From NCBI GenBank assembly GCA_949841365.1, contig CATKZI010000002.1:124001-188000 (forward strand): a stretch of 64,000 nucleotides of DNA. The letters are read 5' to 3'. The stretch is from an uncultured Candidatus Melainabacteria bacterium. GTDB taxonomy: Bacteria > Cyanobacteriota > Vampirovibrionia > Gastranaerophilales > Gastranaerophilaceae. Position numbers and translations under genes: made by a program. The notes under the pieces were generated by a model. The model did not search any database and was not told the DNA's origin. It saw only the letters and a program-made list of their open reading frames with translations. This document shows, in pieces, positions 2,465 through 24,789 of this stretch (position 1 is the first letter of the stretch; each line of letters begins with the position of its first letter).

Positions 2465-2941
2465 ATGAAACATGACTTAATAATCAGAGAACCTGATTTT
2501 TACTTTGACAGTATTCATAATGAATTAAATAACTTTTTGCGCGACACGCTTCTGGTTCACGCAAATCCCCTGAACGTCAAAAAAACTTCCATCTGGCGTC
2601 CCGCAGTAGAAGTTAAACAAAACGACAAAAACTACAAAGTAAAAGTCCAACTTCCGGGAGTGAACAAAGACGATATTGAAGTCGAACTTGATAACGAGTT
2701 TATGACAATAACGGCAGAAATTCACGAAGAAGCCGAAGAAAAAGAAGAAAAAGCCAAAAACGAACGCTGCCATACATCCGAGTTTCGTTACGGCAGATAT
2801 CAAAGAACAATCTCTTTTGATCATCCCGTCAAAACCGAAGAAAGTACAGCGGTTTATGACAAAGGTATTTTGACAATAACAATTCCAAAGGTTGAAATAA
2901 AACACAAACAGCCTAAAAGGTTGGAAATAAAGGAAAAATAA
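2465..2941 (+). CDS. Small heat shock protein, Hsp20 / alpha-crystallin family
   Basis: ATP-independent holdase chaperone that binds unfolding proteins, 158 residues. The alpha-crystallin domain spans about 50-150, with KVQLPGVNKDDIEVEL, YGRYQRTISF and the C-terminal GILTITIPK. A Lys/Glu-rich tail ends in a long basic stretch. A purine-rich GGAAAGGG sits 9 nt before the ATG. The gene is alone between two 68-bp inverted repeats, so it may be cargo of a small mobile or rearranged unit; I see no transposase. Heat regulation is likely from the family but no known operator is visible. Confidence 0.93.
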   Translation: MKHDLIIREPDFYFDSIHNELNNFLRDTLLVHANPLNVKKTSIWRPAVEVKQNDKNYKVKVQLPGVNKDDIEVELDNEFMTITAEIHEEAEEKEEKAKNERCHTSEFRYGRYQRTISFDHPVKTEESTAVYDKGILTITIPKVEIKHKQPKRLEIKEK

Positions 2942-2948
2942 TAAACGA

Positions 2949-3016
2949 TAAAATCACACAGTAGGCGATTTAGAAAGTGACAATAAACTTTAATAAGTCC
3001 CTGAATAAGCCGCCCA
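2949..3016 (+). repeat. 68-bp inverted repeat, right copy
   Basis: Partner of 2169-2236 with 66 of 68 positions identical in inverted orientation. It begins 7 nt after the hsp20 stop codon and ends where the structured RNA candidate starts. It contains possible promoter-like text (TTTAGA, then TAATAA), which could drive the RNA; this is weak. Confidence 0.9.
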
Positions 3017-3279
3017 GTGGTGAAAAAATCAGTATCCCAAACCTAATCCTCCGAGAGATTTTCGGTCATCCGTGTGAATGAAATGCCGAACCTGTGGTTC
3101 AATCAGGGCAAGGGAGTACACCCCGTGGCACATGTCACACACAATATAAGGCGGGATACGGACGGTTACCTGATGGGTGAAACTTTCCGGATAATGGGAA
3201 AGCTGAGCGCTATCGCCGCATATCTCAGATGACGGTAATCGATAAAAGACGCGGAACGACTGAAAGTTCCGCGTTTTTT
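3017..3279 (+). ncRNA. Structured RNA candidate with own terminator (possible orphan HEARO/omega-like RNA)
   Basis: There is no ORF here, but many helices are visible: GTATCCC 3032-3038 with GGGATAC 3153-3159; CCGA 3051-3054 with TCGG 3062-3065; GTGTGA 3072-3077 with TCACAC 3135-3140; TGCC 3084-3087 with GGCA 3127-3130; GAACC 3088-3092 with GGTTC 3096-3100; CTTTCC 3183-3188 with GGAAAG 3197-3202; CTGAG 3203-3207 with CTCAG 3224-3228. The fold is nested and multibranched and is followed at once by ATGA (3229), then by a strong terminator. It shows none of the hallmarks of tmRNA, RNase P RNA, SRP RNA or common riboswitches. A core of about 200 nt followed by ATGA resembles HEARO RNAs, the omega RNAs of IscB nucleases, but no iscB is adjacent. 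The RNA itself is fairly likely; the class is a guess. Confidence 0.55.
3249..3279 (+). terminator. Intrinsic terminator, bidirectional
   Basis: A 9-bp stem ACGCGGAAC (3249-3257) with GTTCCGCGT (3266-3274), loop GACTGAAA, then a T-run. On the minus strand it is followed by TTTT, so it can also end the convergent ligase gene that stops at 3283. Confidence 0.9.
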
Positions 3280-3282
3280 ATA

Positions 3283-4593
3283 TTATACACTTACATATTT
3301 AATCAATTTTTTAATATCTTTATTCCAAATGCCATTCCAGTTTCGGATAATCACATCCGCAGGACAAATTCCTGCAAGCGCATACTCTTTTATCGCATCA
3401 AGAAATTTTTCTTCACCCGTATCAGTTTCTATAAGAGCTTTTTCGGCAATATATAATATTTCCTTTGCAATATCTTTTGCGTAATATTTACCGATTTTAG
3501 CATTCAATGCACTTTTTGGAACATTATAGCGAAGTTCGGAAAAATCTCTGTAATCAAACGGTGCAAAAAGTTCTTCAATCTCTTGTATTGCGCAATGGCT
3601 GTATAAAATTCCTTTATAAATTGCCAAAATTGAGTATTGCAAACCTTTGCCGACGCAATCGTGGTTTCTGATTTCCAAGAAATTACGCATCCTAACCTCT
3701 GGAAAATAAAGGTTTGCATGAAGTTCAAAATCTTGAATATCAGCCTCAAACCCCTCATAACCATTTTGCATAAATTCCGCAAAATTTATTTTACCGTTAA
3801 TCGGCACAACGTCATTTTCACGATTAATAAAAATCATCGGGGTTTCAAGAACATAATCAACATACTCATCAAACGAAAACTTATCATCAATCTGCCCGAC
3901 AAAACCGCATCTGTCATTATCGGTATTGAGCCAGCTAAGTGCGCGAAAACTCTTATAACCCGTTTCAACTCCGCCTCTTATCGGAGAATTTGCAAACATA
4001 GCAGTCATAAACGGGGTAAGTTTATTTGCAATTTTGAACTTCTGCACGGCATCTTCTTCGTTTTCAAAATCAATACAGCACTGAATTCCCGCAGTTTCTC
4101 GCATCATAACATCCGACAAAATTCCCCAAAGATATTTTGCCATAAGTTTATAGCGTTTTTTAGGTATAAGCCCGATATTTTTGTTTGTAGAAAGAGGAGA
4201 TACACCGTAATTCAGCAAACTTATATTAAATTTGTCCAAAACAGGTTTCATCTGCTTATCTAAAACCTCAATTTTATTTTTAAGCTCATGAATTGAATTT
4301 TCGGGCTTAATACTCAATTCCACCTGACACCCGGGTTCAAGCGTAATTGTGTCATGCTCCTGTTTTAAGCCGATAATATTATAATCATCAGTAATATAAT
4401 CCCAATTTTCCTCTCTTGCAAAATTTCTCAAAAAATTACAAATTCCAAACTCTGAACCATAATCAACAGCCTTAGATGTAACGGGAAAAATCGGCAGTCT
4501 TTCATACTCCATTCCGATTTTGCAAGAACTTTTACAACCTTCCCTAAATAACTTTAGAATATCTTCTTTCCCTAATTTATGTGCCGTTTGCAT
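3283..4593 (-). CDS. gshA: Glutamate-cysteine ligase, GCS2 / plant-like type
   Basis: ATP-dependent ligase joining glutamate and cysteine to gamma-glutamylcysteine, the first step of glutathione synthesis; 436 residues. Recognisable stretches are IGMEYERLP (metal/ATP site, about 27-35), LEPGCQVELS, a run from MRETAGIQ to ANSPIRGG, and RALSWLNTD. These match the plant and cyanobacterial GCS2 branch rather than E. coli GshA. AAGGAG lies 6 nt before the ATG and a TATAAT sits about 20 nt further upstream, giving a short leader. No gshB is in the window, so gamma-glutamylcysteine itself could be the thiol used. A glyoxalase at 22291 may use the product. Confidence 0.85.
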   Translation of the reverse strand: MQTAHKLGKEDILKLFREGCKSSCKIGMEYERLPIFPVTSKAVDYGSEFGICNFLRNFAREENWDYITDDYNIIGLKQEHDTITLEPGCQVELSIKPENSIHELKNKIEVLDKQMKPVLDKFNISLLNYGVSPLSTNKNIGLIPKKRYKLMAKYLWGILSDVMMRETAGIQCCIDFENEEDAVQKFKIANKLTPFMTAMFANSPIRGGVETGYKSFRALSWLNTDNDRCGFVGQIDDKFSFDEYVDYVLETPMIFINRENDVVPINGKINFAEFMQNGYEGFEADIQDFELHANLYFPEVRMRNFLEIRNHDCVGKGLQYSILAIYKGILYSHCAIQEIEELFAPFDYRDFSELRYNVPKSALNAKIGKYYAKDIAKEILYIAEKALIETDTGEEKFLDAIKEYALAGICPADVIIRNWNGIWNKDIKKLIKYVSV

Positions 4594-23775: not shown

Positions 23776-24660
23776 CTACGGTTTTTTAAACCTGAAATAA
23801 ATATTCAAAACTAACTTATTATCAGCATCTTTTCCAATGGTAAAACCGTCGCAATAAAATTCATTATGAATTTCATGCCAGTCGCGAATAAGAATAATTT
23901 TCTTTTTCAACTCATCATTATCCGGAAAAGTTTTAAGTAACCCGCCATAAACATCTGTCGGATAATCCACATATAACTTATGTTTTTCAGAGAATTCGGC
24001 ATTATAATCAATCCCTGTCATACATAAATGTCTTCCGCAATTTTTAATTGCTTCTTTTGTAAGCGGAATTAATTCTTTAAATTGTTCTATACCCAAACTT
24101 TCCAAAAAATTCAAATGGTATTCATCGCTAAAAATTTCATGAGGTTCACGGTTTTTATTCAGCCAATAGCATTTAAGAACTTTAATTCCTGTTTCATCTT
24201 TCACAATACCGATAAAAAAGAATGAAGAATATTTATGGTTTTCGTCCAAATAACGTTTTATTTCGGAAAGTTTTAAAATTTCATCTTTATATTTGTCGAA
24301 AAAACTTACATTTTTATCAAGCCAGTCAAACAAACTCATTACATTTTCATTAGTTAAATTTTTAAGTCCGACGTTAAATCTTGTACATTCACTATTGTCT
24401 TTATCACGTACAATCTCTAAAAAGAAAACCATATCTTTTTCATACAGAAAATCAATAAGAGGATCTTTATATTTTTGTTCATACTCTTCTCTGCTATGTC
24501 CGTCATCATAATATATTTTAAATTCTATATCACTATCGGGTTTTTCAAATATATTCATACCCAGATAATCAATTACTCCCGGTTTTACATTTTCCAAAAC
24601 CTCTTTTGTATATAAATTTGAAAGTTTTTTGTCGATTTCATTATCAAGATATAGTTCCAT
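23776..24660 (-). CDS. Unknown protein with five beta-hairpin repeats (possible ABBA-type fold)
   Basis: 294 residues from the ATG at 24660, placed after AAAGGAG; an in-frame ATG at 24675 encloses that site. No family is recognised by sequence. Five segments look like beta-hairpins separated by helical stretches: IEFKIYYDD, FFLEIVRD...FNVGLK, FFIGIVKD...KCYWLN, LCMTGIDY...KLYVDYP and FYCDGFTIG...LNIYFRF. Five alpha-beta-beta-alpha units in about 300 residues is the plan of ABBA prenyltransferases. That is only a structural guess. No signal peptide or membrane segment is present. It is transcribed away from tRNA-Met. Confidence 0.8.
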   Translation of the reverse strand: MELYLDNEIDKKLSNLYTKEVLENVKPGVIDYLGMNIFEKPDSDIEFKIYYDDGHSREEYEQKYKDPLIDFLYEKDMVFFLEIVRDKDNSECTRFNVGLKNLTNENVMSLFDWLDKNVSFFDKYKDEILKLSEIKRYLDENHKYSSFFFIGIVKDETGIKVLKCYWLNKNREPHEIFSDEYHLNFLESLGIEQFKELIPLTKEAIKNCGRHLCMTGIDYNAEFSEKHKLYVDYPTDVYGGLLKTFPDNDELKKKIILIRDWHEIHNEFYCDGFTIGKDADNKLVLNIYFRFKKP

Positions 24661-24680
24661 ATAAACTCCTTTCATAAATA

Positions 24681-24706
24681 AAAAGGATAGGGGGTAATCC
24701 CTATCC
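24681..24706 (-). terminator. Terminator downstream of tRNA-Met
   Basis: Stem GGATAGGG/CCCTATCC (24685-24706) with a 6-nt loop. On the minus strand it is followed by TTTT, 10 nt after the tRNA 3' end. Confidence 0.88.
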
Positions 24707-24715
24707 TCTTTAATT

Positions 24716-24789
24716 TAGCAAGGGAGAGACTCGAACTCTCGACCTCTCGGGTATGAGCCGAACGCTCTAGCCAGCTGAGCTACCTTGCC
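24716..24789 (-). tRNA. tRNA-Met (anticodon CAT)
   Basis: 74-nt cloverleaf on the minus strand: acceptor GGCAAGG with CCTTGCT (one G-U at 1-72), D arm GCTC...GAGC, anticodon loop CTCATAC, T arm with GTTCGAG, discriminator A. CCA is not encoded. The first pair is not the mismatch typical of initiator tRNA, so it is elongator Met or a CAU tRNA converted to read AUA (Ile); sequence alone does not settle this. A terminator follows. Confidence 0.95.

Follow-up and report, generated by a model that had tools for sequence, protein, structure and literature searches.

We show that the 64,000-nucleotide stretch of DNA analysed here (hereafter the window) carries on its minus strand, at positions 23776-24660, an open reading frame of 294 amino acids plus stop (ORF list and translation), which we predict to encode a soluble ABBA-type (PT-barrel) prenyltransferase of a lineage-restricted family. 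We assign a probability of roughly 0.78 to this reading, in which the protein would bind a prenyl diphosphate in its barrel together with an electron-rich small acceptor; the prediction draws on the ORF, AlphaFold2 modelling, Foldseek and VIA-align comparisons, homologues and dN/dS, and catalysis, donor and acceptor are inferred. Most likely, the reaction would transfer a C5 or C10 prenyl group, the acceptor being a small aromatic compound or a peptide. By its predicted fold the protein belongs to the ABBA superfamily, although its sequence places it outside the PF11468, PF11991 and TIGR04445 families alike. Because an ABBA-like predicted fold is combined here with a sequence resembling no ABBA enzyme, the window protein probably marks a new branch of the ABBA prenyltransferase family.

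The AlphaFold2 model of the window protein (pLDDT 86.7, pTM 0.85), computed from an alignment of five sequences with mean pLDDT across five models ranging from 69.3 to 86.7, predicts ten strands in five alpha-beta-beta-alpha units. DSSP on this model places five strand pairs, separated by helices, at residues 30-38/46-52, 78-85/94-99, 147-155/158-167, 211-219/224-232 and 268-277/283-291, in agreement with the initial annotation, which had read five hairpin/helix repeats from the 294 residues. All on the minus strand, the corresponding hairpins occupy positions 24505-24573 (unit 1, residues 30-52), 24364-24429 (unit 2, residues 78-99), 24160-24222 (unit 3, residues 147-167), 23965-24030 (unit 4, residues 211-232) and 23788-23859 (unit 5, residues 268-291). 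The model of a homologue that is 34% identical (L010; pLDDT 76.7, pTM 0.78) has five strand pairs as in the window protein, and is a partial rather than an independent replicate since it was built on the identical five-sequence alignment. The ten antiparallel strands, five alpha-beta-beta-alpha repeats and barrel that characterise the ABBA superfamily are thereby predicted in two homologous proteins.

Fold comparison points to the same superfamily. For the window model, the best 50 Foldseek rows against the PDB were all ABBA prenyltransferases (best E 8.8e-8, probability 1.00), 78 matches reached E <= 0.001, and the matches listed include FamD1, AmbP1, AmbP3, EpzP, CdpNPT, NphB, DMATS types and CloQ. 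The best 50 VIA-align entries were likewise all ABBA enzymes, headed by auraA (Z 17.1, rmsd 3.8 Å, 274 aligned residues) and followed, among the matches listed, by CymD (16.6), 5-DMATS (16.5) and FunA (16.3), where rows differing by less than 1 Z count as tied. The L010 model again retrieved only ABBA enzymes among its best 50 Foldseek rows, and its best VIA-align match reached Z 17.6 (rmsd 4.2 Å, 276 aligned). Across both models, Foldseek TM-scores were modest (0.44-0.63 on the query, rmsd 5-9 Å) and VIA-align rmsd was 3.6-4.8 Å. NphB (Streptomyces CL190 Orf2) occurs in all four match lists and CloQ in the Foldseek list of the window model, whereas LynF/PatF-type structures are absent among the best 50 rows of each Foldseek and VIA-align list, an absence that is not evidence of difference. 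The earlier guess of an ABBA fold, made from strand spacing, has therefore held up under structure prediction and fold comparison: the PDB matches listed are all ABBA prenyltransferases, NphB and CloQ included, the ten-stranded layout is present, and there is no confident match to another family.

At the sequence level, the 11 homologues have no convincing relative in Pfam, NCBIfam, PHROGs or PDB sequences, and none that is a prenyltransferase; the same holds for the window protein alone in Pfam and NCBIfam. What appeared were weak and scattered matches, each to one homologue (best 0.0087 in NCBIfam, 0.015 in PHROGs and 0.093 in Pfam), and three weak partial matches in a profile search of PDB sequences (best E 0.15). 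The models of three known ABBA types, namely PF11991 (DMATS/CymD), PF11468 (CloQ/NphB) and TIGR04445 (LynF/TruF/PatF), did not match any of the 11 homologues at E <= 1, nor anything in the window genome (G000) at E <= 10, E <= 0.01 and E <= 0.001, respectively. An hhalign comparison with a profile of nine LynF/TruF-type proteins gave a probability of 0.3%; the TIGR04445 survey had found 17 places, six of which are fragments, and two of the other 11 (L047, partial, 45-282, and L043) were left out of the alignment. Searching 50,697 phage and 72,556 plasmid records with the window protein (tblastn) gave no match, and two viral-contig scans yielded no homologue. A genome-contig scan recovered four loci, all on contigs already known from the whole-genome searches, and did not return the six homologues of other genera, whose genomes may be outside that collection. 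In the literature, most subscription journals being outside the search, we found no published link between Gastranaerophilales and a prenyltransferase and no description of this family.

Whole-genome searches yielded homologues of full length at three taxonomic levels: in the genus, 5 of 33 genomes carry one, in the class 10 of 382, and in the order 11 of 383. The 11 carriers all fall within one family and are spread over five of its genera, and the homologues are 34 to 93% identical to the window protein. Partial matches spanning 34-138 positions, with best E from 1e-5 to 0.008, were dropped (L006 in the genus search; G295, G261, G264, G332, G040 and G111 in the class search; G295 and G337 in the order search); the frames of L006, L037 (G295) and L038 (G337) were read and resemble unrelated longer proteins, and the other five were dropped by score and length alone. 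In four close pairs, dN/dS was 0.094, 0.083, 0.068 and 0.153, and values of 0.07-0.15 indicate that the gene is real and its protein kept by purifying selection. One genome, G375, holds a tandem second copy beside the intact one (L062:5238-7091), broken into two frames of 154 and 161 aa, which is the only duplication seen. In another homologue (L009:8001-8876, 57% identical), an ATG is missing from the conserved start position, probably through a sequence error or the use of some other start codon; beginning at the first ATG, GTG or TTG of its listed ORF would cost about 32 residues. Bacteria of the Gastranaerophilales type, which are non-photosynthetic relatives of cyanobacteria, probably inhabit animal guts, and one homologous contig comes from yak abomasum. 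IspH completes the MEP route to DMAPP, and ispH was found in 10 of the 11 carriers, the exception being an 89% complete genome.

The initial annotation saw no sequence signature in the protein; here we arrive at a different result. A K/N-x-Y motif stands on the second strand of four of the five hairpins (K48/Y50, K163/Y165, K228/Y230 and N286/Y288). The remaining second strand has R94-x-N96 instead, and D86 lies eight residues N-terminal of R94. K48, Y50, K163, Y230, N286 and Y288 are invariant in the 11 homologues. Specifically, the invariant K48-x-Y50 (strand 2; 24511-24519, minus strand, as are all five) is proposed, by strand order, as the counterpart of FgaPT2 Arg100. R94-x-N96 (strand 4; 24373-24381) has R in 10 of 11 homologues and I in one, with N, D or E at position 96, and may, together with D86 (D in 10 homologues, E in one), correspond to FgaPT2 Lys187/Asp178, again as assigned by strand order. 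K163-x-Y165 (strand 6; 24166-24174) has K in all 11 and Y in eight, the other three having H, and might be the counterpart of EpzP N172/Y174, whose strand placement we assume. K228-x-Y230 (strand 8; 23971-23979) has K in 10 homologues and T in one, with Y in all, and both residues of N286-x-Y288 (strand 10; 23797-23805) are invariant. R94 is missing in homologue L016 and K228 in L019. Overall, every second strand has a conserved K, R or N, and four of the five also have Y (or H), with a putative inward orientation read from strand alternation. By analogy, these positions are reminiscent of the cage that holds the diphosphate in known ABBA enzymes. In PMC3485228, R49, K117, R232, K283, N172, Y174 and Y220 are given as diphosphate ligands of EpzP, and in PMC3668578, K187, D178 and R100 share in diphosphate binding in the Aspergillus DMATS FgaPT2 (PDB 3i4x).

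The window protein contains four copies of the strict motif [KRN][ILVMFC]Y[YFWV], compared with a mean of 0.25 in shuffled sequences, and none of 20,000 shuffles reached four, a figure weakened by the motif having been defined after the sequence was seen. None of the other 52 ORFs of at least 150 aa in the window has more than one strict motif, and in ten homologous neighbourhoods, which hold 141 ORFs of at least 150 aa, no ORF outside the family reaches three. The strict motif is present in only two copies in 4 of the 11 homologues, and the looser K/R/N-x-Y occurs six times in the window protein, partly off the second strands. These observations suggest that an ABBA fold may be recognisable outside any sequence family through a repeated K/R/N-x-Y strand signature.

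In the mechanism we envisage, a prenyl diphosphate, probably DMAPP and possibly GPP, would be held inside the ten-stranded barrel, its diphosphate gripped by basic and tyrosine side chains arranged in a ring (K48/Y50, D86-R94/N96, K163/Y165, K228/Y230, N286/Y288). Ionisation would give an allylic cation, which an electron-rich acceptor in the same barrel could then attack; the Friedel-Crafts alkylation described for ABBA enzymes in PMC3485228 would be the model. It is on this basic and tyrosine ring that the donor half of the mechanism rests. Our best guess is that the acceptor is small, either an amino acid in free form (aromatic, or histidine), a short peptide, or an aromatic compound of the habitat, a guess that follows from the lack of a recognised cluster and from structural nearness to DMATS-type enzymes.

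Two in-frame ATG codons could start the gene. We prefer that at 24660 over that upstream at 24675, because a ribosome-binding site, AAAGGAG (24672-24666, minus strand), lies 5 nt 5' of the former. Directly upstream on the same strand is a tRNA-Met (24716-24789), which is context and not part of the enzyme; among the homologues compared, this layout is repeated in that of G011 only. The 55 nt between tRNA-Met and start codon (24661-24715) consist mostly of a strong terminator-like hairpin with a U tract (24679-24712, minus strand; -20.3 kcal/mol, z -4.14), so that a promoter of the gene's own is not obvious, and expression of the prenyltransferase-like gene may depend on read-through. Beyond the tRNA lies enolase in divergent orientation. 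Downstream, the strand of the gene also encodes a 357-aa protein that has no Pfam match, and a glyoxalase-like protein; names of neighbours without a Pfam match, enolase included, were read from the translation. The window genome measures 1.69 Mb and is 99% complete.

Judged by ORF content and an all-against-all blastp comparison, the surroundings of the 11 homologues contain no biosynthetic cluster or cyanobactin-like neighbourhood that we could recognise, nor anything nearby that points to a peptide substrate or suggests an acceptor. Extended common gene order is confined to close relatives (window/G028, window/G011 and G194/G301), and other common neighbours are scattered, comprising prepilin-like, helix-turn-helix and peptidase-like proteins and a few unnamed ones. 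L008 (G011) and L063 (G312), which belong to different genera, have a pair of genes in common less than 4 kb from the gene; one member of this pair is matched in 33 of 33 genus genomes, on another contig in G000, and is therefore a common gene rather than a partner. Among 871 small ORFs within 3 kb of the 11 homologues, no convincing precursor peptide was common to unrelated neighbourhoods: the three best matches overlap tRNA genes, and the remaining ones have E of 0.02 or worse.

For four of the 11 genes, a tRNA is no further away than about 110 nt, with tRNA-Met upstream in the window and L003, tRNA-Pro upstream in L004 and tRNA-Met downstream in L016. G012 and G023 have a tRNA-Met/enolase junction that lacks the gene; G028 does carry the gene on the contig of this junction, at a distance of about 25 kb. 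In several relatives of the genus, enolase is not adjacent to a tRNA-Met-like match but is separated from it by about 1.6 to 5 kb of the contig that they share. The comparison suggests that the tRNA-Met/enolase region is a variable locus across the genus, and that the gene has undergone gain, loss or rearrangement within the lineage. With no recognised cluster, scattered neighbours and gene-free tRNA-Met/enolase junctions, the gene looks like one that stands alone and has been acquired, lost or relocated in the history of the lineage.

Other readings of the same evidence should be considered. The barrel could have been forced by AlphaFold2 from a shallow alignment, the true fold being another alpha/beta arrangement, and the five-sequence alignment and the spread in pLDDT among the five models lend this some weight. 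We nevertheless give it very little credence, as the 34% identical homologue has the same strand layout, the pTM of the window model is 0.85, and a motif seldom seen in other ORFs turns up repeatedly on the second hairpin strands. That the fold is right and catalysis absent, the protein having a binding or regulatory role as PatF may have, we regard as distinctly improbable. The gene is indeed an orphan with no recognised pathway, and PatF offers a precedent, keeping the ABBA fold while the counterparts of K187 and D178 in its cage are replaced, and showing no activity (PMC3668578). In the present family, the basic and tyrosine positions are conserved in nearly all 11 homologues, which is the opposite of PatF.

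A catalytic alternative, unlikely in our view, is that the protein prenylates peptides or proteins in the style of the cyanobactin enzymes LynF/TruF, with its precursor encoded elsewhere in the genome. Its length is similar to that of the 282-position TIGR04445 model, with whose cyanobacterial members it shares a phylum, and the N-x-Y-F near its C-terminus is like the (R/N/K)-x-Y-Y of the LynF type. However, TIGR04445 remains unmatched in the 11 homologues and in G000, the LynF/TruF profile comparison fails, and separate neighbourhoods have no convincing small ORF in common, the three best candidates being those that coincide with tRNA genes.

A protein of ABBA-like predicted structure possibly occurs in phages as well. 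When the window model was compared with viral predicted structures (Foldseek), uncharacterised cyanophage proteins ranked second to fifth, that of S-RIM44 with E 1.9e-6 and probability 1.00; rank one was an unnamed 526-aa entry (E 1.2e-6). The likely gene in Cyanophage S-RIM44 (KX349291, ES420910_044, L097:48330-49202), matched by its 290-aa length only, belongs to phrog_4851, whose function is not known and which occurs in 22 phage records; relatives of it lie in L101-L105 at about 2501-3380. In the six phage records read, the phrog_4851 gene stands in a block with 2OG-Fe(II) oxygenases and a gene that two of them annotate as tail assembly chaperone. The strict [KRN]xY motif is absent from all six aligned phage sequences.

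Known ABBA enzymes derive for the most part from the secondary-metabolite clusters found in actinobacteria, fungi and free-living cyanobacteria, and those among the structure and profile matches listed are consistent with such an origin. If a diverged, cluster-free family does exist in what are probably gut bacteria, this would point to the making there of prenylated small molecules or peptides that escape cluster-based mining. We tentatively raise the possibility, though we would not wager on it, that the protein represents a fourth ABBA sequence family, so far seen only in Gastranaerophilales-type bacteria, a stand-alone and cluster-free enzyme that prenylates a common amino acid, a peptide, or a dietary or host aromatic compound in the animal gut. 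Since the protein is small and predicted to be soluble, the prenyltransferase reading itself is directly testable.

Among known systems, LynF, TruF and PatF (TIGR04445) share the superfamily by fold, as judged from the PatF structure (PMC3668578), and, in a wider sense, the phylum, and are of similar length. Eight of nine aligned proteins of the LynF type carry (R/N/K)-x-YY near the C-terminus, comparable to N286-x-Y288, whereas the window protein has no match to their profile and no cyanobactin-like neighbourhood was seen around it or its homologues. Nearest in length, at about 300 aa, are the CloQ/NphB-type enzymes (NphB, CloQ, EpzP, AmbP1, AmbP3 and FamD1), which we take, in part, to fall under PF11468. 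Among the matches listed they have the lowest Foldseek E-values, and AmbP1 reaches a VIA-align Z of 14.8; N172/Y174 of EpzP resembles K163-x-Y165, although identity to this type is only 7-14% and PF11468 is unmatched. The best structural matches among those listed are of the DMATS/CymD type (CymD, 5-/6-DMATS, FunA, auraA, AtaPT and CdpNPT), presumably all PF11991 members, with Z 14.7-17.1 over 254-279 residues. Despite 5-12% identity, no PF11991 match and a window protein about 50-135 residues shorter, the likeness to these enzymes extends to the basic and tyrosine positions on the second strands, and several of them have been solved with free amino acids, as CymD with Trp, or are named for one, as FunA for free histidine.
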